Source of the DNA: Patescibacteria group bacterium
GTDB lineage: Bacteria > Patescibacteriota > Minisyncoccia > Minisyncoccales > JAHCRE01
NCBI GenBank assembly: GCA_020148025.1
Contig: JAHCRH010000004.1
Span: 1 to 52,453 of the forward strand
Length of the DNA stretch: 52,453 nt
Direction of reading: 5' to 3'
Made by a program: the position numbers and the translations under genes. Shown here one piece after another: positions 2,467-26,406 of this stretch (position 1 is the first letter of the stretch; each line of letters opens with the position of its first letter). The notes under the pieces were generated by a model that worked only from the letters and a program-made list of their open reading frames with translations, did not search any database and had not been told where the DNA came from.

Positions 2467-3611
2467 ATTTTAAAACTTTGAATTAATCTTCTTTGAGCTT
2501 CGATTTTTTCCCTTTTTATTATTTTACTCTTTTTAATTCCTCTTTCCAAAATTTCTATAGTTTTATCATAAGTCCCTCTACTGACCGGATAGGGTGTGCC
2601 ATCCTTCCCTCCCACACAAAATGAATATCTGGCCGGATCCTCATAGGATGGGTTTGCTCCATAAATTATTTCTGAAACTAGAGATAAAGCCCTAATTGTT
2701 TTAGGCCCAACGCCTTTTAATGATAGAAGTTGCTCAAAATCCTCGGGCTGTTGCTGGCTGGCAAAAAAGATAGTTTTTTCAAGTCTTTTAAGATCGAACT
2801 TTTCTTTCAAAATAGGATGCCAATAAAATTCGATCTCTCTAAGCTCCATTAAAGTAAAATTTTCCGGTTTTTGTTTTCTTAACGAAATATCATTGGGTCT
2901 TCTCAAAATCATTTTAAGATCTCTTAAAAAAATTTTGGGTTCTTCTCTAACTAGTTCCGTTGAAATTTCTTTATTTTCTTTGCTTTCTTTTGCGGTCAAA
3001 TTTAAGGGCTTTGTGCGAACATCGGAAATAATCCCCGAATGGGGAAGCTCTGTAAAATTTTGCAAGCTTGAAGAAAGCCAATGATAACGCCGAGCTTTTT
3101 GATAATCAGTATTCATCCCTTGCTGAATCACTGACCACTGACCAGATTTTGTAAAAATCAAGTTATGGTGATAAATTTGAAAACCGTCTTGTAAACAAGA
3201 ACTATCTACTTTTGCCGAGATTTTTGAAGCATAAATAAGTTTATCAATCTGCCTCAGTGGCAGACCCAAGAACTCTCCCCAATTTTGAATCTGTTGGGGA
3301 GTTTTTCTCGAAGTTTTTCCTTTACCGCCACAAATGAAAATACCCAATTCATTTTCTAATCCTCTTAATCCTTCTTTAAGAGCCCCCATGGTAATGGTAG
3401 TTGTCCCCGAAGAATTCCAATCCATTCCTATCACGCAACTTAAACTTTGAAACCAAACTGGATCGCTTAATCTTTTTAAAAATTCTTCTACTCCGAATTC
3501 TTCTACAATAGCTAAAACTATTCCTCTCGAAAGTCTTTTCATCCTTTCGAAAAGCCAATAAGGGCAACGACCATAATCTAATGGAATTGTTGCAATGCCA
3601 ATTCTCGGCAT
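2463..3611 (-). CDS. DUF763 family protein
   Basis: This 382-residue protein begins [20 protein letters not shown], which matches the usual start of DUF763 (a PLH/DYGR-x-PxWLFERM motif). It contains the PHSGII segment and an HhH-like stretch [17 protein letters not shown] near residue 300, which hints at DNA binding. The family is widespread in archaea and CPR bacteria and its function is unknown. I prefer the internal ATG at 3611 over an upstream ATG at 3629 because homologues start there. A TAAAAT box lies 8 nt before 3611 with almost no leader. It overlaps metK by 4 bp. Confidence 0.8.
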
Positions 3612-3699: not shown

Positions 3700-4650
3700 T
3701 TATTTGTTTCGTGAAATCCGAGTGAGACCACTACAAGGAACAATTTCAATTCCTCTTTTTTCCAACTCATCTAAAAACAAATTAACCCCCAAAGAATCAG
3801 AGCTTATGTGCCCTGCGATAACTACATTAATGTGGGCGGCCTCGGCTTCTTTTTTATGTTCTTCTGAAATATGCATACCAACAATTGTTCCAATTCCGGC
3901 AATGGCCATTTTCTCATAAAGTTTTGAAGAACCCTCGGTACCTCCAGTTATTTCAGTAATGGCAATCTTACCACATCTCCTTTCTTTATCTCCAACAAAA
4001 ATTTTTGGCCCTGCTCCAAATTTCATTGCTTCTTTATATTCCGGGATTTCTTTAAAAAGATTTAATAAATCCTCAATTCTCATCAAACTGTCTTCTTTTT
4101 CGACCTTATCTTTTAAAAATTTAGCAGATAAGTTATCGCAGGCAGTATGCAAACACATTAAATTAAATCCCAAAATTTTAGCTACATCAACCGTTCTCTG
4201 ATGATTAGCGGCATTTACTCCCCGAGCAACTTCTGAAATCCTTTCTTTCATTAAACCTTCAGCAATATTGATCGGCACCCCATATAAATTTAAGACATCG
4301 CATTGTAATTCCATCACATCAGACAAATGAGCTAAGCCCTTTCCTAATGGGTGATGAGAAATTATTAAATCTATTCCTCCAATTTCTTTTGCCAATAAAA
4401 TTTCAGCTGGCTCAATGTCAATTCCAACTAAAATCTTTTTTATTTCTTTATCCTGGGCAATATGTAAAATTCTTGAATCTAAATAAGGACTCTCTAGAGC
4501 CTCCATATCGAATTCCTTTTTCTCTTTTTCAGTTAATCTCTCGTATTTTTTCCTTTTCCTTTTCAAAAGTCTTTCTATTCCTTCTTTTCCTCTAAAATCA
4601 GCTTCAATGCCCATTTTTATTGCCAAATTGTAAATCTCTTTTATTGTCAT
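3700..4650 (-). CDS. NIF3-like metal-binding protein (YqfO family)
   Basis: The 316-residue protein carries the NIF3 metal-binding motif IISHHPLGKGLAH near residue 115 and a C-terminal half with GMHISEEHK and VVIAGHISSDS, which supply further metal ligands. The family is often annotated as GTP cyclohydrolase I type 2, but the biochemical role is not settled. Residues 20-50 are a charged helical insertion (KRKRKKYERLTEKEKKEF) before the core fold. It is monocistronic or the last gene of its transcript, with a terminator directly downstream. Confidence 0.85.
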   Translation of the reverse strand: MTIKEIYNLAIKMGIEADFRGKEGIERLLKRKRKKYERLTEKEKKEFDMEALESPYLDSRILHIAQDKEIKKILVGIDIEPAEILLAKEIGGIDLIISHHPLGKGLAHLSDVMELQCDVLNLYGVPINIAEGLMKERISEVARGVNAANHQRTVDVAKILGFNLMCLHTACDNLSAKFLKDKVEKEDSLMRIEDLLNLFKEIPEYKEAMKFGAGPKIFVGDKERRCGKIAITEITGGTEGSSKLYEKMAIAGIGTIVGMHISEEHKKEAEAAHINVVIAGHISSDSLGVNLFLDELEKRGIEIVPCSGLTRISRNK

Positions 4651-4965: not shown

Positions 4966-6408
4966 TTATTCTCCTTTAATTACTGCCGAAGGTACTAATT
5001 TTGCCACTTTTTTTGACAAACCTGCTTTATGAACAACTTCTACTACTTCATCAACATTCTTGTAAGCCATTGGTGCTTCTTCAGCAATTCCTCTCATTGA
5101 CCAACATTTGATGATAATTCCTTTGGATTCTAACTCTCTGACAACCCTGTGTCCCGAGATCTTTCTTACGGCTGCCCGCCTTGACATTGTGCGTCCTGCA
5201 CCGTGGCAAGTTGAATAAAAGGCTTTTTCTCCTTCCTTTTGACCAACCAAAACATAAGATGCAGTACCCATTGAACCTGGGATCAAAACAGGTTGACCAA
5301 CTTCCCGGTATTTTTCGGGAATTTCAGGATGACCAGGCGGGAAAGCCCGAGTAGCTCCCTTTCGATGAACAATGACTTCAGTTTCCTTTTCGTTAATTAC
5401 ATATTTTTCTTTTTTAATAATGTTATGGGCAACGTCGTATAACAGTTCAAGTCTTTCTCTTTCCCCCAATATTCTTTTCCAGGCTTTTCGAATATAATGG
5501 GCAATCATATACCGATTGGCCCAAGCATAATTTGCAGCAGCAGCCATAGCTGCAAAATATGTCTGACCTTCTGGAGAGTTAAATGGAACGCAAGCAAATT
5601 CTCTATCTGGCACCTTTATTTTGTATCTATACATAGCAGGAATCATTGTTCTCAAGTAATCAGTACAGACTTGGTGACCAAGTCCTCTGCTGCCGGTATG
5701 AATCATTAATACAATTTGATCTTTAAATAAACCAAAGTTTTCAGCGACTTTTTCATCAAAAATCTCTTCGACTCTTTGGATCTCCAAGAAATGATTTCCC
5801 GAGCCGAGGGTTCCAACCTGGCCCCTCCCTCTATTTTTAGCATGATTTGAGACAGTCGAGGCATCTGCCCAATCTAACTTTCCACTGGCCTCACAATCTT
5901 CAACATCTTCGTTCTCTCCGTAGCCTTGTTTTAATAAAACATGAGTTCCTTGCTCTAAGATTTTATTAATTTGAGAAATATCTAATTTTATTTTTCTTCC
6001 TCTCCCCAAACCTGAGGGAATTTCTTTTTGAATCTCAGTGGCTAAATCTTCTAAGCGAGGTTTGATTTCTTTTTCCGAATGTTCTGATTTCAATAGTCTC
6101 ATACCGCAGTTGATGTCATAACCACAAACTCCAGGTGAAATAACACCTTCTTTGGGATTGATTGCCGCTACTCCCCCAATTGGACTAGCATAACCTTCAT
6201 GCATATCCGGCATGCCCAGGGCGTATTTTTGAATTCCGGGTAAAGTTGAAACGTTCACTATCTGCTCAAGAGATTTATCTTTAAAACTTTCTTCTAACAT
6301 TTTTTCTGAAACATAAGCTCTAGCTGGAACTCTCATATCAGGCCTAAAACTCTTTGGAATTTCCCATAAATAATCTGTAATTTTTTTAAAATTTTGCTTC
6401 GTAATCAT
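4966..6408 (-). CDS. rtcB: RNA-splicing ligase RtcB
   Basis: It joins RNA ends with 2',3'-cyclic phosphate or 3'-phosphate to 5'-OH ends, using GTP and Mn2+. The 480-residue protein shows the metal-binding GYDINCGMRL (D98, C101), GTLGSGNHFLE, HTGSRGLGH, and the HGAGR motif with the guanylylated His at about residue 402. The KGATRAFPPGHPEIP segment is also typical. The length matches archaeal-type RtcB. Archease, its activating partner, lies about 1 kb upstream on the same strand with only a SIS-domain gene between. This supports a working RNA repair or tRNA-splicing pair. Confidence 0.96.
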   Translation of the reverse strand: MITKQNFKKITDYLWEIPKSFRPDMRVPARAYVSEKMLEESFKDKSLEQIVNVSTLPGIQKYALGMPDMHEGYASPIGGVAAINPKEGVISPGVCGYDINCGMRLLKSEHSEKEIKPRLEDLATEIQKEIPSGLGRGRKIKLDISQINKILEQGTHVLLKQGYGENEDVEDCEASGKLDWADASTVSNHAKNRGRGQVGTLGSGNHFLEIQRVEEIFDEKVAENFGLFKDQIVLMIHTGSRGLGHQVCTDYLRTMIPAMYRYKIKVPDREFACVPFNSPEGQTYFAAMAAAANYAWANRYMIAHYIRKAWKRILGERERLELLYDVAHNIIKKEKYVINEKETEVIVHRKGATRAFPPGHPEIPEKYREVGQPVLIPGSMGTASYVLVGQKEGEKAFYSTCHGAGRTMSRRAAVRKISGHRVVRELESKGIIIKCWSMRGIAEEAPMAYKNVDEVVEVVHKAGLSKKVAKLVPSAVIKGE

Positions 6409-12373: not shown

Positions 12374-13292
12374 GCAGCATCTCTAAGGCTGACCTTGGAT
12401 CCATTTTTCCAGTTTTAATATTCAAATCTGCCTGAAAAATCTTTTGGTAGATTTTTTTTAATTCGTCAAATTTAAACTTATTTGCTAGAAAATAACTCTT
12501 CCTAACAACGAAAGGGTGGAGATCAACCTTTTTAAAAATCATATTTAGAGATTTCCCGCTCTCAATAAGATCTTTGACAATTAAAAGATTGCGAAATTGA
12601 AAATTTATCATTGCCAAAAGATAAGAAGGCGAATCCCCTTTTTCTAGATGTTTCTTTAGTAATAAAAGAGCTTCTTTTTTATTTTTGGCAGCTATAGCAT
12701 CAATTGTTTTAAAAATATCGGTTTCGATTTTGGGCTTAACCAAAACTCTAACATCCTCTTTTTCAATTTTCTTTTTATTTTTGTAATTAACCAACTTTTT
12801 TATTTCATTTGCCATCTGCCATAAGTTATTGCCAACAGAATCCAAAAGCAAGTTTAGAGCGGATTCATTAATTTTAACCGAATATCTCTTAAATTCTCTC
12901 TTTACCCAATTCTTTAAAGATTTCCCTGTTAACAACTCGAAGTTCTGAGATTTCCCAGATTTTTTTAAAAGCTTAAAGAGCGACCTCCTTTCATCTATTT
13001 TTTCTTCATAAAACAAAATTATATCTTTTGATTTTGAGAGATTTTTAAAAAAACTTGAAAAATCATTTTCAATCTTTGAGTTAAAAAAAACGTTCTTTAA
13101 AACCATTAATTTTTTCTCATCAAACATTGCAAAAGAGCGAAAAGAATCTCGAAAATCTTCAAAGCTATCTTTTTTAAAATCGAAATACTTCAAGTTTAGT
13201 CCACTTTTGTGGATTTTTTTATAATGTTTGATAATTTCGTTCAATTTTTGAGAAGACCTATAAGCATCTTCTCCATAAAGAAAAATAATCAT
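12360..13292 (-). CDS. holA: DNA polymerase III subunit delta
   Basis: The clamp-loader subunit that opens the sliding clamp. The 310-residue protein starts MIIFLYGEDAYRSSQKLNEI, the usual HolA opening, and continues with FDFKKDSFEDF, the QMANEIKKL three-helix region, and RSALEMLLIEI at the end. I use ATG 13292; the longer frame to 13379 overlaps mutM. It starts 2 bp after the mutM stop, so mutM-holA form an operon. The clamp itself (dnaN) is at 40.9 kb. Confidence 0.88.
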   Translation of the reverse strand: MIIFLYGEDAYRSSQKLNEIIKHYKKIHKSGLNLKYFDFKKDSFEDFRDSFRSFAMFDEKKLMVLKNVFFNSKIENDFSSFFKNLSKSKDIILFYEEKIDERRSLFKLLKKSGKSQNFELLTGKSLKNWVKREFKRYSVKINESALNLLLDSVGNNLWQMANEIKKLVNYKNKKKIEKEDVRVLVKPKIETDIFKTIDAIAAKNKKEALLLLKKHLEKGDSPSYLLAMINFQFRNLLIVKDLIESGKSLNMIFKKVDLHPFVVRKSYFLANKFKFDELKKIYQKIFQADLNIKTGKMDPRSALEMLLIEI

Positions 13293-20680: not shown

Positions 20681-20720
20681 TATTTCCGCGCCGCCCCGAG
20701 AGTTTTTCTCGGGGTTTTGG
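20672..20720 (+). repeat. Array boundary A
   Basis: CTCTTTTTTTATTTCCGCG, CCG, then hairpin CCCCGAGAG, TTTTT, CTCGGGG, then TTTTGG. Hairpin at 20694-20714. Confidence 0.85.
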
Positions 20721-20730
20721 TTTTATACAC

Positions 20731-20758
20731 TTGACAAGGTTTTAGTTAGAAAGATAAT
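20731..20758 (+). promoter_or_regulatory. Promoter of the array RNA unit
   Basis: TTGACA, 16-bp spacer, GATAAT. Expected start near 20765. Confidence 0.75.
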
Positions 20759-20764
20759 AGAAGT

Positions 20765-20995
20765 AGAGGGAGTCACTCTTTGGGACAATAAAAATAACTA
20801 ACCGTCCTCGGATGACTAATGTCTACGAGGCGCCCATAACAAAAGGGCCACAGAGATTCTCTCACGGCTATATTTAAAAAACCAATCGTTACTGTCCCAA
20901 AGAGACTCTCTCTCACATCTCATTTAGAGATGAGAGTAGCACCTTAACAAACTTACATAATAGTTATGGCACACACCCGTGTGCCTCTTTTTTTT
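20765..20995 (+). ncRNA. Structured non-coding RNA in the array
   Basis: This unit has promoter and terminator but no credible gene. The transcript of about 230 nt closes with a long helix: GAGTC plus CTCTTTGGGACA (from 20771) pairs with TGTCCCAAAGAG and GACTC (to 20908). Inside, CCGT/ACGG encloses three hairpins: CCTCG/CGAGG, GCCC/GGGC and AGAG/CTCT. After the closing helix comes CATCTC-ATTTA-GAGATG, then the terminator GGCACAC-ACCC-GTGTGCC with eight T. A 21-codon ATG frame at 20812 has no ribosome binding site. I do not recognise an RNA family. Confidence 0.7.
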
Positions 20996-21035
20996 ATTTT
21001 CGCTCCTCCAGAGAGTTTTTCTCTCGGGGTTTTGG
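20985..21035 (+). repeat. Array boundary B
   Basis: CTCTTTTTTTTATTTTCGC, then hairpin AGAGAG, TTTTT, CTCTC, GGGG (21010-21029). The left hairpin arm has diverged from CCCCGAGAG. Confidence 0.8.
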
Positions 21036-21047
21036 TTTAGCCGTCCA

Positions 21048-21076
21048 TTGACAAAATTTTATAAAGATATATTATT
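21048..21076 (+). promoter_or_regulatory. Promoter of array unit 3
   Basis: TTGACA, 17-bp spacer, ATTATT. Confidence 0.65.
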
Positions 21077-21104
21077 CAAATTAGGAAAATAAGGAGGGGT
21101 AAGA

Positions 21105-21341
21105 ATGAAAGCTTTTGGCCTGGAAAGAGAAAAATGGTGGTCAAACCTACGTGAAGATATGGGAATGGTGGTCACTGCAGCATCTGAAGACGAAGCTCTT
21201 GAGAAAGTGGCTGGAAAATTTAATGGTAAAGTAGAGGCTAATTCTAATCAGGGCAAGTTCGTTTCTCTTCCTCAAAAACACCCAGATTCCAAGGACTACC
21301 AGCCGTATATCTATTTAGCCGAAAAAGGACTCATTGCCTAG
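21105..21341 (+). CDS. Array gene 3, small protein of unknown function
   Basis: The 78-residue protein MKAFGLEREKWWSNLREDMG is soluble, with no membrane segment or known motif that I recognise. The middle AASEDEALEKVAGKFNG looks like a helix that might pack on a small alpha/beta fold. AAGGAGG lies 7 nt before the ATG. Promoter and terminator (21383-21419) are its own. Confidence 0.75.
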   Translation: MKAFGLEREKWWSNLREDMGMVVTAASEDEALEKVAGKFNGKVEANSNQGKFVSLPQKHPDSKDYQPYIYLAEKGLIA

Positions 21342-21382
21342 CTCTTTTAATAAACGACTAATTGCAGAACGAATTTCTTTAA

Positions 21383-21419
21383 AGGTGCTAAATTCACAAG
21401 AATACGGCACCTCTTTTTT
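21383..21419 (+). terminator. Terminator of array unit 3
   Basis: AGGTGC and GCACCT with an 18-nt loop, then CTTTTTTATTT. Confidence 0.75.
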
Positions 21420-21453
21420 ATTTCCGCCGCCATCCCGAGAGTTTTTCTCGGGG
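21411..21453 (+). repeat. Array boundary C
   Basis: CTCTTTTTTATTTCCGCCGC, CAT, then CCCGAGAG, TTTTT, CTCGGGG (hairpin 21434-21453). Confidence 0.85.
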
Positions 21454-21465
21454 AAGCCGTTGCTC

Positions 21466-21494
21466 TTGACATGATTCAGAATAAGGCATACAAT
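21466..21494 (+). promoter_or_regulatory. Promoter of array unit 4
   Basis: TTGACA, 17-bp spacer, TACAAT. It covers the first codons of the longest open frame, so the true start must be downstream. Confidence 0.8.
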
Positions 21495-21521
21495 ACAGAT
21501 AGTAAAAATGGAGGGATCGGA

Positions 21522-21989
21522 ATGGGCGAGCTTTCCATATTTTCAGAGAAAGACTCTCTTGTTAAAATACACGCGGTAGCACTAAAGAAGTTAATAGTTC
21601 AATCGGCTGCTGAGATAATTAATGCCTGCGATAGTCATAATCCTGTCAAGATAAAGTTCCCTAACTCAAAAACTGCTAAGATATTAGCAAAAGACCTACA
21701 GTGGAGTTTCCGCGGTTTTGTTGATGGCCTTGCGACTAAAGCAGATCTAATTCTGGCTTATGTAAAAGCCATCGTTGATGCAGAAGGAGAATCAAAGTTA
21801 GCAACAGCACTGAAACAAAGAGAGGTAATACTAATTAGAGAAGCACTTGAAAGATTTCAAAAATGGAAAACAGAGTATTGCGAGGAGAATCGGCGGATTC
21901 ACGGCAAAGAATGGGCCAAAGGCGTAGAACTTTATAATAAAGATTGGACCGAACTAAACAAAAAATTCAGCGCTCTATTCTGGAAATAG
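21522..21989 (+). CDS. Array gene 4, helical protein of unknown function
   Basis: The 155-residue protein MGELSIFSEKDSLVKIHAV is predominantly helical and charged, with a long helix in the second half (LKQREVILIREALERFQKWK). I do not recognise a family. An open frame begins at 21471, but that lies inside the promoter; GGAGGG at about 21511 sets ATG 21522 as the start. The terminator CCCGAGG/CCTCGGG at 22011-22033 follows. Confidence 0.75.
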   Translation: MGELSIFSEKDSLVKIHAVALKKLIVQSAAEIINACDSHNPVKIKFPNSKTAKILAKDLQWSFRGFVDGLATKADLILAYVKAIVDAEGESKLATALKQREVILIREALERFQKWKTEYCEENRRIHGKEWAKGVELYNKDWTELNKKFSALFWK

Positions 21990-22010
21990 AACATTATACA
22001 ACTTCTATAT

Positions 22011-22033
22011 AACCCGAGGCCTCGGGTTTTTTT
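22011..22033 (+). terminator. Terminator of array unit 4
   Basis: ACCCGAGG directly followed by CCTCGGGT and TTTTTTATTT. Confidence 0.85.
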
Positions 22034-22070
22034 ATTTCCGCGCCGGCCCGAGAGTTTTTCTCGGGGTTTG
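22026..22070 (+). repeat. Array boundary D
   Basis: GTTTTTTTATTTCCGCG, CCGG, then CCCGAGAG, TTTTT, CTCGGGG (hairpin 22047-22066). Confidence 0.85.
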
Positions 22071-22073
22071 ATG

Positions 22074-22082
22074 TGATATAAT
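22074..22082 (+). promoter_or_regulatory. Extended -10 promoter of array unit 5 (leaderless)
   Basis: TGATATAAT is an extended -10. It ends 7 nt before the ATG, so transcription would begin at or beside the start codon. The -35 position falls in the boundary hairpin. Confidence 0.65.
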
Positions 22083-22089
22083 CTGTTAT

Positions 22090-22299
22090 ATGAAAGATAA
22101 TTATCAAAGAAGCATTATAAAATCAATAAGTTGGAGATTCGTCGCAACATTAACGACAATGATAATAATATTTGCCTTCACAGGAAAGATTATGCTCTCT
22201 CTTGGAGTCGGTTTTTTTGAAGCAATCTCAAAAATCATTCTTTACTATATCCACGAACGGTTCTGGAATAAGATTAGTTGGGGGCAACTCCAGGTCTAA
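22090..22299 (+). CDS. DUF2061 membrane protein
   Basis: The 69-residue protein matches DUF2061: RSIIKSISWRFVATLTTM, a second membrane segment SLGVGFFEAISKIILYYIHE, and the closing HERFWNKISWG. It is a two-helix inner-membrane protein of unknown function, often linked to sulfur-assimilation loci elsewhere. It has no Shine-Dalgarno and looks leaderless, unlike the other array genes. It is the only array protein I place in a named family with good confidence. Confidence 0.85.
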   Translation: MKDNYQRSIIKSISWRFVATLTTMIIIFAFTGKIMLSLGVGFFEAISKIILYYIHERFWNKISWGQLQV

Positions 22300-22328
22300 A
22301 ACAGGTTCTAATCGTCCACTAGGGGAGC

Positions 22329-22358
22329 CGCGCGCGGGCCCGAGAGTTTTTCTCGGGT
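22329..22358 (+). repeat. Array boundary E
   Basis: Lacks the T-run; GCCGCGCGCGGG leads into CCCGAGAG, TTTTT, CTCGGG (22339-22357). It is preceded by ACAGGTTCTAATCGTCC, which recurs as ACAGGTTCTAACATCGTCC at about 24937 before boundary J. Confidence 0.8.
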
Positions 22359-22368
22359 AGGTCCGCTG

Positions 22369-22397
22369 TTGACAGGTTTTAGGATATTTGTTAGAAA
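22369..22397 (+). promoter_or_regulatory. Promoter of array unit 6
   Basis: TTGACA, 17-bp spacer, TAGAAA (weak -10). Confidence 0.55.
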
Positions 22398-22430
22398 AGA
22401 ATAGTTGTTTAAAAATCACGGTGAGTTAAA

Positions 22431-22937
22431 TTGAATAAAGAAGGATTTAGACTTGAAAGACATGCTCAACTAACATCGCATGGGAGAAGAGCCGTAGAGA
22501 GATTCTTGAAAAGTATGGAAGAGGAAGGAAAACCTCCTTCGGTTATCCAAAAAAGCGTAGTTTTAGAATTCCTGCAGCTACACGAAGAAACCATAGATAC
22601 AAGGATACAGCCAGAGAAAAGATTCAAAGACATACTCAGAAGGATGGCTGAAGAGCGAGAATTACCATTACTTGTGTTTGAGTATCTGTTCAGAGAGAGC
22701 GCCAAAAGTGTCTTATCTGCCGTTGAAAAGAAAGAAACTGACATTATTTTAACGAGAGACCAAATCACTGCCCTTCAAGAGGTTATAGAGGTTTTAAAAG
22801 GAATATGTGACCACTGCGGTGGAGAAGGAGAGGTTCCGTTAGGCGAAGGAGTTCAAAAAAAGACATGCCCTAAATGTAAAGGTGCCGGAGAGATTAAGCC
22901 CAAAGGAATTGACGCAGAAGAATTCGAAAAATACTAA
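22431..22937 (+). CDS. Array gene 6, helical protein with DnaJ-type zinc-finger half
   Basis: The 168-residue protein has a helical N-terminal 120 residues and ends with CDHCGGEGEVPLGEGV and CPKCKGAGEI, two CxxCxGxG motifs that form one zinc site as in the DnaJ cysteine-rich domain. No J domain is present, so this is not DnaJ. Such modules bind zinc and sometimes unfolded peptides. The start is TTG at 22431 with GGTGAG 6 nt upstream. The terminator is at 22937-22966. Confidence 0.75.
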   Translation: MNKEGFRLERHAQLTSHGRRAVERFLKSMEEEGKPPSVIQKSVVLEFLQLHEETIDTRIQPEKRFKDILRRMAEERELPLLVFEYLFRESAKSVLSAVEKKETDIILTRDQITALQEVIEVLKGICDHCGGEGEVPLGEGVQKKTCPKCKGAGEIKPKGIDAEEFEKY

Positions 22938-22966
22938 GAGACAAAACCCCATTGTCTCTTTTTTAT
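22937..22966 (+). terminator. Terminator of array unit 6
   Basis: AGAGACAA and TTGTCTCT around ACCCCA, then TTTTTATTTT. Confidence 0.85.
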
Positions 22967-23002
22967 TTTCGGTCGCCCCACCCCGAGAGTTTTTCTCGGG
23001 GT
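22956..23002 (+). repeat. Array boundary F
   Basis: CTCTTTTTTATTTTCGG, TCGCCCCA, then CCCCGAGAG, TTTTT, CTCGGGG (22981-23001). It abuts the next -35 box. Confidence 0.85.
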
Positions 23003-23030
23003 TGACTTTTAGATTAGGGTTTGATAGTAT
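23002..23030 (+). promoter_or_regulatory. Promoter of array unit 7
   Basis: TTGACT, 17-bp spacer, TAGTAT; the -35 follows the boundary hairpin without a gap. Confidence 0.65.
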
Positions 23031-23053
23031 AAATCGTAAAAAGGAGGGATTAA

Positions 23054-23365
23054 ATGAAAGCATTTTTGCTCTTTAATGTGGGAATCAATGGAATGGAGAC
23101 AGAATTCGTAGTTCTCACAAGTTCTCCTGAAGAACTTGTGAAGATGTGCGGTGGTTCTTTAGTAAAAGGCGTTCTTACCGATGCACCCTTAAGATGGAAA
23201 GTGGATGCGATATGTCTTCCAAAAGATTTCACTCCCAAGAAGGGCTTCGAAGCTCTTAAAAAGATTTACATAGCAAAGTCAAGTTTCACTACAGGAGGAA
23301 AGACCTTATACTTTAAGGAAATTCCTATATTAGCAGACGGTGAAGTTGCCATCTTGACCCCATAG
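23054..23365 (+). CDS. Array gene 7, small protein of unknown function
   Basis: The 103-residue protein MKAFLLFNVGINGMETEFVV looks like a small alpha/beta domain (strand, turn, strand, then the helix SPEELVKMCGG). It shares the opening MKAF with array gene 3 but no further clear similarity. AAGGAGGG precedes the ATG. Its own promoter and terminator (23366-23395) flank it. Confidence 0.75.
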   Translation: MKAFLLFNVGINGMETEFVVLTSSPEELVKMCGGSLVKGVLTDAPLRWKVDAICLPKDFTPKKGFEALKKIYIAKSSFTTGGKTLYFKEIPILADGEVAILTP

Positions 23366-23395
23366 GAGCGTTTCAAATCTTAACGCTCTTTTTTA
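23366..23395 (+). terminator. Terminator of array unit 7
   Basis: GAGCGTT and AACGCTC with a 9-nt loop, then TTTTTTATTT. Confidence 0.85.
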
Positions 23396-23432
23396 TTTCC
23401 CGCCGCCCCGAGAGTTTTTCTCTCGGGGTTTT
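23386..23432 (+). repeat. Array boundary G
   Basis: CTCTTTTTTATTTCCCGCCG, then CCCCGAGAG, TTTTT, CTCTCGGGG (23406-23428), then TTTTG. Confidence 0.85.
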
Positions 23433-23445
23433 GTTCGTGCAGGAC

Positions 23446-23475
23446 TTGACAAATTTAGAATTAATATGATATAAT
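23446..23475 (+). promoter_or_regulatory. Promoter of array unit 8
   Basis: TTGACA, 18-bp spacer ending in TGA, TATAAT. Near-perfect consensus. Confidence 0.85.
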
Positions 23476-23498
23476 TGAAGATGTAAAAGGTGAGGATA

Positions 23499-23789
23499 GT
23501 GGAATATTATGTAGTAGATGATGTTGGAGGAGGGCAGCAAACGAAAGGAGTGCTCTTAGAAGTAGTTAGGGACCGGAAACCCGAGCTGCCAACTAAACAT
23601 ATGATATTGGTAGACGTAGGAGTTCACTGCAGTGAAGCATCGCCTGGTCTTTATCGAAAAAAGATAAAAGCAACCTTCTATGAGGAAATCGTCGTCTTTG
23701 AAAAACCTGATGGAACAGTCTTAATCGTGCCTTCTGATCTCGAGAAAAAAAATCGAGCAAAAGTCCTTAACTTCTTAACCACTCCGTAA
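23499..23789 (+). CDS. Array gene 8, small protein of unknown function
   Basis: The 96-residue protein begins MEYYVVDDVGGGQQTKGVLL if the GTG at 23499 is used, which sits 5 nt after AGGTGA. A GTG at 23490 would overlap that ribosome binding site. The sequence looks beta-rich (ILVDVGVH, ATFYEEIVVFE, GTVLIVPSD). No family recognised. The terminator is at 23798-23828. Confidence 0.7.
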   Translation: MEYYVVDDVGGGQQTKGVLLEVVRDRKPELPTKHMILVDVGVHCSEASPGLYRKKIKATFYEEIVVFEKPDGTVLIVPSDLEKKNRAKVLNFLTTP

Positions 23790-23797
23790 AGTCTTTC

Positions 23798-23828
23798 GGG
23801 CAGACTCTAAATGCCCTCTTTTTTTATT
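23798..23828 (+). terminator. Terminator of array unit 8
   Basis: GGGCA and TGCCC, then TCTTTTTTTATT. Confidence 0.75.
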
Positions 23829-23926
23829 CTAAATAGCTAACAATCCTCTTATTTGTCCTAACAAAACCTCAGGATCCTTCACAAGCTCCACCCACTCAAA
23901 AGTTCGAAAATCGTCCCACCCGGGGA
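23829..23926 (-). pseudogene. Possible gene remnant in the array
   Basis: On the minus strand the stretch between terminator 8 and boundary H reads LPGWDDFRTFEWVELV followed by KDPEVLLGQIRGLLAI and a stop. It looks like a protein C-terminus but has no start, promoter or upstream domain. The longer open frame to 24089 runs through the boundary and the neighbouring gene, so it is unlikely to be real. Family unknown. Confidence 0.3.
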
Positions 23927-23962
23927 GCTTTTTTATTTCCGCCCGCCCCTGCCTTCGGAGAG
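23927..23962 (+). repeat. Array boundary H (variant)
   Basis: GAGCTTTTTTATTTCCGCCC, GCCCCTGCC, TTCGGAGAG. It lacks the TTTTTCTCGGGG half and resembles boundary I, so the inverted unit is bracketed by two like variants in direct orientation. Confidence 0.7.
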
Positions 23963-23982
23963 CTATCACCTTAATTTTTATT

Positions 23983-24013
23983 AAAAAAAGAAGCCGAGCA
24001 TTGAACTCAGCTT
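23983..24013 (-). terminator. Terminator of the inverted unit
   Basis: On the minus strand AGCTGAG, a TTCAATG loop, CTCGGCT, then TCTTTTTTT. Confidence 0.8.
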
Positions 24014-24366
24014 GAAATCTTTGAGCATTTTCTTGGTTTTTCAACTTTGTAAAGAACTTTCCAATAGACACTCCACACGCATATCCCAAATAGCTTGTCT
24101 TCAGTTATAGAATCTTTTTCTTCGGGACTTTTTTTGATGGAGTCATTCTTCGAAGACGCGACTTCAGAACAATAAGAAAGAGTCACCTGTATACTAGGAG
24201 GAGCACTCTTAATCGATACAACCTTCGCTTCTCTGAAATGAGGACACGACGGACATTGTTTTTTCTGCTGGATAATGTTTCCTGAATATCTGCTCTCATA
24301 TTTTCCTCTTTTATATCTGCCTGTCTTTGGGTTAAATACTATCTTTATTGGTTCGTTTGTAGTCAA
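24007..24366 (-). CDS. Array gene 9 (inverted), cysteine-containing protein of unknown function
   Basis: The 119-residue protein (MTTNEPIKIVFNPKTGRYKR) has a CPSCPHF motif near residue 38 and further cysteines (SYCSE, GICVW, KCSK) that could bind metal. No family recognised. The start is TTG at 24366, supported by AAAGGAG 10 nt upstream and a TTGACA promoter at 24411-24439 on the minus strand. It is the only array gene in reverse orientation, back to back with array gene 10 across boundary I. Confidence 0.7.
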   Translation of the reverse strand: MTTNEPIKIVFNPKTGRYKRGKYESRYSGNIIQQKKQCPSCPHFREAKVVSIKSAPPSIQVTLSYCSEVASSKNDSIKKSPEEKDSITEDKLFGICVWSVYWKVLYKVEKPRKCSKISS

Positions 24367-24410
24367 AAACTCAAATCTCCTTTATTAATGCCTTATTGAG
24401 AACTATTTAT

Positions 24411-24439
24411 AATTTAGAAAATTATCTTAGATTTGTCAA
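24411..24439 (-). promoter_or_regulatory. Promoter of the inverted unit
   Basis: On the minus strand TTGACA, 17-bp spacer, TAAATT. Confidence 0.7.
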
Positions 24440-24443
24440 AAAG

Positions 24444-24484
24444 GAGCTTTTTTATTTCCGCCGCCCTGCCCTGAGAGCCGCCGA
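24444..24484 (+). repeat. Array boundary I (variant)
   Basis: GAGCTTTTTTATTTCCGCCG, CCCTGCCCTGAGAGCCGCCG. The end matches the left edge of the array (AGAGCCGCCG at about 20151). Confidence 0.75.
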
Positions 24485-24485
24485 T

Positions 24486-24514
24486 TTGACAAACTTTTCA
24501 ATAAGGTATATGAT
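24486..24514 (+). promoter_or_regulatory. Promoter of array unit 10
   Basis: TTGACA, 17-bp spacer, TATGAT. Confidence 0.8.
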
Positions 24515-24539
24515 GACAGCGTAAAAGGAGGGTGAAAGA

Positions 24540-24860
24540 ATGAAACTTTGTTGGGTAGGTTTTTGGGACAGCATTAAAGAATACGGTGCATACATACTAG
24601 AAACTATAAAGACAGGAGAACCAGAGCTACGAGGATTCGGAGCCACATCAGATCTTGCCAAATTAGCTGCAGAAATCAAACAGTTAGTCAAGCAACATCC
24701 TAAAGAAGGCATAGCCATAAGATACGAACCGCCAGGGACTGATATCGTTACTATGTGGGGCGATGGTTCTATAACTCTCAATAGCGCAGGTAAGGACTTT
24801 CGAGCTCTTAACCCAGAAGAGATTGCCCAGTTCCGTAAGGCATTCTTAGAAGTTCAATAA
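24540..24860 (+). CDS. Array gene 10, small protein of unknown function
   Basis: The 106-residue protein MKLCWVGFWDSIKEYGAYIL continues with a helix (SDLAKLAAEIKQLVKQHP), then strands (GIAIRYEPPGTDIVTMWGDG), and a final helix. No family recognised. AAAGGAGGGTGA lies before the ATG. Terminator at 24897-24921. Confidence 0.75.
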   Translation: MKLCWVGFWDSIKEYGAYILETIKTGEPELRGFGATSDLAKLAAEIKQLVKQHPKEGIAIRYEPPGTDIVTMWGDGSITLNSAGKDFRALNPEEIAQFRKAFLEVQ

Positions 24861-24896
24861 ACATAGCTTTTTTCTTTCTTTTTTCTTCAAATTTTT

Positions 24897-24921
24897 GAGG
24901 CTTCATGCCTCTTTTTTTATT
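24897..24921 (+). terminator. Terminator of array unit 10
   Basis: GAGGC, TTCAT, GCCTC, then TTTTTTTATTT. Confidence 0.85.
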
Positions 24922-24936
24922 TAATCTCCCACCAAA

Positions 24937-25027
24937 CAGGTTCTAACATCGTCCGTCCCTCGGAGCAGGCTAGTGCTCGGTTCGAGCGACCGAGCCGCTC
25001 GCCCCGAGAGTTTTTCTCGGGGTTTTA
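24937..25027 (+). repeat. Array boundary J (right edge)
   Basis: ACAGGTTCTAACATCGTCC, a CTCGGTTCGAGCGACCGAG hairpin, then CCCCGAGAG, TTTTT, CTCGGGG (25002-25022). The gene remnant begins directly after it. Confidence 0.8.
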
Positions 25028-25044
25028 TATAAGATTTGCTATAA

Positions 25045-25611
25045 TTTAACAAGATAGATTTTGAATGGATTGAGATTTTTAATAAAAATGGTTTTGAGAT
25101 TAATCTTTCTGATTGGGAAATTAAAGATACTATAGGTAGAACTAAAACTTATACTTTTCCAAAAGGAACGAAAATTTTAGCCAATGGATTTTTGGTTCTT
25201 AAAAGACCTATTACAAAAATTACCTTAAATAATAACGGCGATGGAGTATTGCTTATTCAGCCAGATGGAAAAATTACTGACGAAGTCAGTTATGAAAAAG
25301 CGTCTCATGACCAACCTTATAATCGAGTAGAATCTGGTTGGGTTTGGGACAATAATTTAACCCTTGGTTCCCAAAATATTATCCCAGTTTCAATTTTAAA
25401 ACCTGAAAAAGAAACTGAGGAAGGAAAAACTCAAGAATCTACTAGTGAAAAAGAGTTGGCAGCAATTGGCGAGCAAATCCCCAAAAAGATTTCTTCTTTT
25501 CTTCCTTTATTAATTGCCTCAGGAATTGCTATTTTCTCAGGGATAACTATTTTGATTCTCAAAAAAACGATAACCCGTCTTCGCTCGCCAAAGTTTCCGA
25601 GAGAAATTTAG
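25045..25611 (+). pseudogene. 5'-truncated lamin-tail-domain protein
   Basis: The frame opens after a stop at 25042 and reads FEWIEIFNKNGFEINLSDW, the interior of a lamin-tail (LTD) domain, then QPDGKITDEVSYEKAS, a Ser/Glu-rich linker and a C-terminal membrane helix FLPLLIASGIAIFSGI with a basic end. LTD proteins normally start with a signal peptide and a V.INEI strand; both are missing, and no ATG precedes the domain. Boundary J lies about 20 bp upstream, so the array or a rearrangement seems to have removed the 5' part. A TTG at 25192 could start a shorter peptide but would cut the domain. Confidence 0.7.
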
Positions 25612-25628
25612 ACGGGTAGAAACAAAAA

Positions 25629-25664
25629 AGCTCCGCAAATTTCTTGCGAAGCTTTTTCATTCCC
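25629..25664. terminator. Bidirectional terminator
   Basis: AAAAAGCTCCGCAA and TTGCGAAGCTTTTT around ATTTC; T-runs on both strands. It serves the lamin-tail remnant and the zinc-finger gene. Confidence 0.75.
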
Positions 25665-25701
25665 CGTAGTATAAATACGGTTAACCACTGGGCAGGCTGG
25701 A

Positions 25702-25884
25702 TTAGCGACTGAATCTTTGAGCTCTTCTTTTAGCCCAACAATCCCGGCAATAAATTGGTCTGTCTGGTGACGGTTCGAATGGGAGTTCAGGTATTTCCTT
25801 TCCACAGTCAGCACATTTCCAGTCTCCCTTAAACATCTTTCGGGGAGGAAAGTCCCTTCCCGATTCAAATTTTTTGAAGGCCAT
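25702..25884 (-). CDS. Small CxxC...CxxC zinc-finger protein
   Basis: The 60-residue protein MAFKKFESGRDFPPRKMFKG contains WKCADCGKEIPELPFEPSP and IYCRDCWAKRR, a two-CxxC zinc ribbon of a type common in CPR and Chloroflexi genomes (CxxC-x17-CxxC family). The function is unknown, presumably nucleic-acid or protein binding. ATG 25884 is preferred over 25893 because homologues begin near the FKKF segment, but either is possible. Confidence 0.75.
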   Translation of the reverse strand: MAFKKFESGRDFPPRKMFKGDWKCADCGKEIPELPFEPSPDRPIYCRDCWAKRRAQRFSR

Positions 25885-25892
25885 GATACTCA

Positions 25893-26340
25893 CGGATTTT
25901 CACAAATAAGCCACGAATACTATAGATTAGTGTTATTTGTGCTAAATTCGTATAGATTTCCGAAATAAAAATTAAAAGCGACCTTTTTGATGCTTCGGTA
26001 AACTCAACATCATCCTGAGCCTGCCGAAGGATGACTTTTAAGTCGCTCTACCCCATTAGAAATTTTTGATTTCTGTATTAGGTTATTATATTAGAGGTTT
26101 GTCCGATACAGACTAATATTTTTAATTTCTAACGGGGTCTACTTATCTGAGCCTTCAATTTATTCGCCTTTGGCGAAGGAATCTTCAGCGAAGCTGAATA
26201 TTTTGATAATTAAAGACTTACCTAAGATACCTCGACTTATACGTCTACCCCCGTAAGTAGAGAAATTTCTCTCTCACCACGGAGTCTATAGTTATTATAA
26301 TTGTTGTCCTTAATAAGTCAAGCGGGCATACCAATCTCGA
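25893..26340. other. Repeat-rich intergenic region
   Basis: No gene seen. It contains AGCGAC/GTCGCT arms (25977-26045) enclosing a CATCCTGAGCCTGCCGAAGG palindrome, the CCCCATTAG element, TTCGCCTTTGGCGAA and TTCAGCGAAGCTGAA palindromes near 26160-26195, an ACTTAC/GTAAGT pair near 26216-26260 and GAGAAATTTCTC. No promoter with a gene or RNA signature stands out. Confidence 0.6.
26047..26141. repeat. CCCCGTTAG palindromic element, copy 3
   Basis: Arms CCCCATTAGAAATT and AATTTCTAACGGGG with a loop of about 60 nt. The flanks are TCTA on both sides, a 4-bp direct repeat differing from the TAAA of other copies. Confidence 0.75.
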
Positions 26341-26370
26341 AACCGAATTCTCAATATCTCTTATGTATGT

Positions 26371-26406
26371 TCCCGCTGCCCCGAGGGTTTTTCTCAGGGT
26401 TTTTTA
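26371..26406 (+). repeat. Outlying array boundary K
   Basis: CCCGCTG, then CCCCGAGGG, TTTTT, CTCAGGG, TTTTTTAT. It is a diverged copy of the boundary hairpin located 1.3 kb right of boundary J and about 45 bp before the comM remnant. Confidence 0.7.

Follow-up and report, generated by a model that had tools for sequence, protein, structure and literature searches.

A cassette-borne family of structured RNAs with a constant frame and a hypervariable core in Patescibacteria

What is encoded by a transcription unit that is carried in a cassette array and contains no credible gene? This question is raised by a unit in the window analysed here, a stretch of 52,453 nucleotides from a Patescibacteria group bacterium. 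The array that holds the unit is flanked by genes that we take, from their translations, to encode a RuvB-like and an M23-peptidase-like protein. Its other units hold small ORFs equipped with promoters and terminators of their own, and among the array proteins scanned only one had a Pfam family above the cut-off, DUF2061. A sequence-only reading had proposed that the unit carries a stable, structured non-coding RNA. As an explanation of the whole, we consider it probable that the unit (member A) is a gene for a structured ncRNA of about 230 nt with a shared scaffold and tail and a variable core. The features of the unit and its boundaries are as follows.

20695..20714, + strand: array boundary hairpin CCCGAGAGTTTTTCTCGGGG, 5′ of the unit (repeat search)
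20731-20995, + strand: complete transcription unit of member A, promoter to terminator
20731..20758, + strand: promoter, with −35 TTGACA (20731-20736), a 16-bp spacer and −10 GATAAT (20753-20758)
20764..20995, + strand: structured non-coding RNA gene, member A (fold, covariance models)
20766..20787, + strand: closing helix, 5′ strand (20766-20774 plus 20777-20787, CA bulge 20775-20776)
20788..20893, + strand: hypervariable core, a three-hairpin multi-branch unlike all other members
20894..20913, + strand: closing helix, 3′ strand, pairing with the 5′ strand
20916..20932, + strand: second hairpin, loop AUUUA (stem 20916-20921/20927-20932)
20937..20951, + strand: conserved box TAGCACCTTAACAAA, 15 bases, unpaired in predicted folds
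20968..20995, + strand: intrinsic terminator (GGCACAC 20968-20974/GTGTGCC 20979-20985, then T8 20988-20995)
21008..21027, + strand: array boundary hairpin, degenerate copy, 3′ of the unit (repeat search)

The −35/−10 promoter was found just upstream of the start that had been assigned to the unit, and the three-hairpin multi-branch, the hairpin with the AUUUA loop and the strong terminator are all present as described. The closing helix is present as well but is longer than the 17 bp originally counted: it comprises 20 bp (9 + 11) with a two-base CA bulge and encloses the multi-branch. An unpaired UAGCACCUUAACAAA stretch sits between the AUUUA-loop hairpin and the terminator. The minimum free energy of member A is −74.3 kcal/mol, compared to a mean of −43.4 kcal/mol (sd 3.9) for dinucleotide shuffles (z −8.02; 0 of 200 shuffles). 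The longest plus-strand ORF within the unit is a 21-codon frame (MTNVYEAPITKGPQRFSHGYI) without a ribosome site, consistent with the view that no credible gene is present.

To relate the RNA to known families, the comparison with Rfam that the sequence-only reading had called for was run. Member A reached the gathering score of none of the 4227 families, and what matched at a permissive threshold (E ≤ 5) did not exceed chance; at the related loci, only tRNAs reached the gathering score. The long closing stem, the single transcript and the strong fold are reminiscent of 6S RNA. However, the family described below has a multi-branched variable core instead of a stem with one central bubble, and its extra hairpin, unpaired box and terminator lie beyond the closing stem. 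No covariance match to 6S RNA was observed, even at the permissive threshold, and for this reason and for want of a single central bubble, identity with 6S RNA was rejected.

We are highly confident that member A belongs to a small and real family of ncRNA genes. Eight members (A–H) were identified in five genomes from two families and one order of Patescibacteria: A, B and C in the genome of the window (G000), D in G001, E in G002, F in G012, and G and H in G058. B and C were found on contig C15 of the same genome from short DNA-search matches, and D was found in a sister species through the conserved box. A first covariance model, built from A–D, was searched against 247 genomes of the order; its training sequences scored 131 bits (B), 102 (D), 89 (C) and 83 (A). 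With this model, E scored 68 bits in a genome outside the training set, and F gave a weak match. G was found by a more sensitive run and inspection. A second model, built from the 3′ part of A–G, gave 67 and 64 bits for its training sequences G and F, respectively, and 35 bits for H, which was not used in training (E 0.0013, a rough value given the short-calibrated models). The presence of a promoter and a closing helix of its own confirms H. The family shows matches to models R1 and R2, a promoter, a closing helix starting at +1, an unpaired box and a terminator, and when about 420 kb were scanned separately for the combination of promoter, closing helix and terminator, A, C, G and H were among the 11 matches.

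Comparison of the members shows a common predicted frame, which consists of a sigma-70-type promoter, the closing helix, an unpaired box (UAGCACCUUUAACAAA-like) and an intrinsic terminator. The same −35/−10 layout precedes all eight members a few bases before the transcript start, and all eight end in a terminator. In each of them, the first transcribed bases pair with the strand just 5′ of the 3′ tail. Fold z values, from one run over the whole family, range from −2.3 to −6.9. The box is unpaired in all predicted folds and conserved in sequence, and the terminator is also conserved in the family. The AUUUA-loop hairpin is present in A, B, D, E and F, damaged in C and absent from G and H.

The sequences of the closing helix differ by lineage (GAGGGUUUCUUUGGGA/UCCCAAAGAAACUCUC in the D-like members, GGAGGGGGCUU/AAGCCCCUUUCC in G, GGUAGGGGG/CCCCCUACC in H). 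When the pairing energies of own 5′ with own 3′ strands were summed over the family, this assignment was the lowest of 40,320, and own pairing also ranked first among the 24 assignments whenever one first-family member was combined with F, G and H. The closing helix thus covaries, the 3′ strand of the same member being the best partner of each 5′ strand. The covariation rests on eight members with at most four independent helix sequences, and the weak helix of F (−10.1 kcal/mol) adds little to it. The covariance check proposed for this locus therefore upholds a stable non-coding RNA as one unit of the array. The competing suggestion that the 21-codon frame is the conserved part was refuted, the frame being private to A. 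It is likewise extremely unlikely that the unit encodes a small peptide: short frames ending in the UAA of the box occur in B (24 codons), E (48) and F (39), whereas A, C, D, G and H have no comparable frame ending there, and the 21-codon frame of A has neither a counterpart nor a ribosome site.

Constant complementary ends around a variable interior are also known from other RNAs. In retron ncRNA (msr-msd), complementary ends (a1/a2) enclose a variable region, and the members could by analogy be retron-like or otherwise reverse-transcribed RNAs whose ends close a variable template. Reverse transcriptases were detected in G012 and, on another contig, in G000. However, no RVT_1 gene was found in G001, G002 and G058, the incomplete genomes that carry D, E, G and H, so that three of the five carrier genomes are without a detected reverse transcriptase, and none was present among the window-array proteins scanned. 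We regard a retron-like RNA as barely conceivable. Bacterial Y RNAs have the same design of a constant terminal stem plus a variable module, and a Y RNA-like scaffold would present its constant stem to the Ro60 protein. Here the likeness is one of design only: a TROVE-domain protein was detected in none of the five genomes, with a positive control genome, and no Rfam match was obtained. We give this explanation next to no chance.

The interior of the RNA behaves differently from its frame. The 3′ parts of A–E are 77–92% identical (z 9–20 vs shuffles), and the cores of the same members resemble one another no more than shuffled sequences do (ten pairs, lowest p 0.010). The cores of B, C and D are unrelated although these members occupy the same chromosomal place in one genus. 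Across the members, core length varies from 48 to 155 nt. Taken together, the cores fold slightly better than shuffles (summed Z −3.8, A being the clearest case) and are therefore not plain filler. Pairing of the core of A with the tails of B and C was not significant (p 0.11 and 0.085), and no target or binding partner of the RNA was found. The variability of the core could reflect a loosely constrained spacer and not a recognition element.

The box and terminator also form a module 3′ of a protein-coding cassette (L017 11403-11486, − strand, 41.8 bits; ORF L017:11479-11829), and a weak module was found at L017 8334-8423 (+ strand), 3′ of ORF L017:7990-8343. Because the module also follows a coding cassette, the box need not be specific to the RNA function, and box and terminator may be a general 3′ module. 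These two positions, together with the unrelated cores, would fit an explanation in which box and terminator are the generic 3′ end of a cassette and the RNA units are stripped coding cassettes with an unconstrained filler as core. We consider this rather improbable, as compensating changes keep the closing helix, the cores are more folded than shuffles and two families retain the gene at a single chromosomal position.

The box itself suggests another function. A trans-acting antisense sRNA could pair through the box (CACCUU) with Shine-Dalgarno regions of mRNAs and block translation, while helix and core only stabilise the RNA. The conserved sequence of the box and its unpaired state in all folds are in line with this, and a cassette-borne trans-acting sRNA is known from integrons: sRNA-Xcc1 of Xanthomonas, which shares its cassette with symE and resides in a true integron with attC and IntI (PMC12444791; PMC8876359 ref. 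96). sRNA-Xcc1 and the family of member A are alike in being small non-coding RNAs whose cassette array is under the control of a tyrosine recombinase. Member A differs from sRNA-Xcc1 in being the sole element between its terminator hairpins and in matching no known RNA family, and the recombinase close to its relatives is of the Xer-like type. Against 39 start regions with a Shine-Dalgarno motif, taken from the surroundings of array hairpins, RNA copies and the recombinase, the predicted pairing of the box did not exceed that of shuffled boxes (z +0.37 and +0.23). Moreover, conservation of the box reaches beyond the CACCUU core, and the identical box type follows the coding cassette in L017. 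An antisense function of this kind is thus unlikely. The sequence-only reading had suggested a regulator, an anti-phage RNA or a toxin/antitoxin part, and these roles found no support: no toxin neighbour recurs, the family is absent from phage and plasmid collections, and the anti-Shine-Dalgarno regulator is unsupported.

The chromosomal setting extends the earlier picture, as the RNA of member A is present in further copies and most copies lie beside an Xer-type recombinase elsewhere in the chromosome. The RNA is located in a variable array between uppS and the gene of an Xer-type tyrosine recombinase in G000 (B, C), G001 (D), G002 (E) and G058 (H). For F, the contig end carries sequence resembling that preceding the recombinase in G001. 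Member A resides in the separate cassette array of the window, away from the uppS-recombinase place. The recombinase scored 80 bits with TIGR02249 (integron integrase; cut-off 265) and 219 with XerC (cut-off 335), and XerD was also below its cut-off. It thus fails the family cut-off for an integron integrase and, judged by its protein sequence, is Xer-like without being assigned to one class.

Two kinds of repeats accompany these loci. The CCCGAGAGTTTTTCTCGGGG hairpin occurs in 34 copies in G000 (≤3 mismatches) vs 0 in the reversed control. It is found at unit boundaries in the window (20695-26399) and in nine other contigs of G000, and also in G001, G002 and G012 and once in G040. TTAATATTGTGCGACATT recurs on both sides of the Xer-type recombinase in five genomes and is often followed by a CCGTTAG..CTAACGG hairpin. 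One copy is near the recombinase promoter and others are beside small genes. The copies are at the following positions.

L067: TTAATATTGTGCGACATT at 4303, 5132, 6580
L017: TTAATATTGTGCGACATT at 6084, 7594, 10027, 11947
L138: TTAATATTGTGCGACATT at 3387, 5606, 6750
L140: TTAATATTGTGCGACATT at 12534, 14353
L141: TTAATATTGTGCGACATT at 3003, 4419, 5444

This arrangement is an integron-like or dif-module layout in Patescibacteria. B and C begin directly after a TTAATATTGTGCGACATT site, so that blocks of site, RNA and ORF may be mobile units. In attC, a variable interior likewise lies between complementary conserved ends, and with a tyrosine recombinase as neighbour the inverted repeat of the members could matter as a DNA hairpin, folded as a recombination site, and not as RNA. 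This is very improbable, given that promoter and terminator are kept with the helix, on the same strand, in all members, and that separate repeated candidate sites exist in the form of the TTAATATTGTGCGACATT sequence and the CCCGAGAG hairpins.

We also searched for the family in wider collections. The genomes are few drafts, and the larger searches used strict filters, so that some weak members may have been missed; a pattern search with a limited gap for the closing helix was unhelpful because the core is too long. Among 384 genomes drawn from the class, no member was found beyond the genome of the window, two weak matches being judged chance by their context. In viral contigs of IMG/VR, the pattern of box and terminator gave 0 matches and the box alone 20, all chance by context, and phage and plasmid records contained no family member. 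A pattern scan of GTDB r220 matched the family only in JAHCRF010000006.1 (= G001); three further matches were unrelated and due to chance. The exact box in G038 (L007, L034) lies within gene leaders without a closing helix and was not counted as a member.

Several side observations were made. In G038, at L007 1501 and in L034, the box appears as TAGCACCTTAA(C/T)AAA in two gene leaders, and the L034 copy can base-pair with the ribosome site that follows it (AGGAGGTG). A hairpin in G022 (L079 1501-1572, GAGATTTTCTTTGGGCAC..GTGCCCAAAGAAAATCTC, GAGATTTTCTTTGGGC..) nearly matches the closing helix of the family and is without box or matching promoter. On contig C2 of G058, a unit of promoter, closing helix and terminator without a box (GAGGGGGA..UUCCCCCUC; L152 1905-2063, + strand) adjoins a tRNA and is a possible relative of the family. 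About 700 nt past member H, a promoter is followed by about 350 nt of hairpin-rich sequence (L140 10047-10430, + strand) in which no plus-strand ORF, tRNA, tmRNA or Rfam match was found; this is possibly a second new RNA.

From comparative sequence analysis we conclude that these genes form a new family of cassette-borne structured RNAs with a constant frame and a hypervariable core, whose function we infer as follows. Closing helix and terminator would provide a stable scaffold, and the unpaired box would be bound by one common partner, either a protein or an RNA. The changing core would act as the specificity element, so that each copy binds or titrates a target of its own, and gain of a new cassette would place a new core on the same handle. 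Taken jointly, scaffold, common partner and specificity element are a tentative proposal. It goes further, and seems quite improbable to us, to regard the family as an RNA counterpart of a hypervariable receptor, with a constant handle, cores that are replaced or diversified between copies, and copies that are gained and lost in recombinase-linked cassette arrays. If this receptor-like reading were true, the recognition RNAs of each cell would form a changing repertoire, directed for example against phages.

No literature on structured noncoding RNA in Parcubacteria was found, and structured RNAs of Patescibacteria appear to be little studied. It is unusual for an RNA family to combine a fixed frame with core turnover inside a single genus. 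The RNA family gives a direct test of whether the cassette arrays of these tiny genomes carry RNA functions. Should the core serve as a recognition element, the family would represent a new way to store diversity in RNA.
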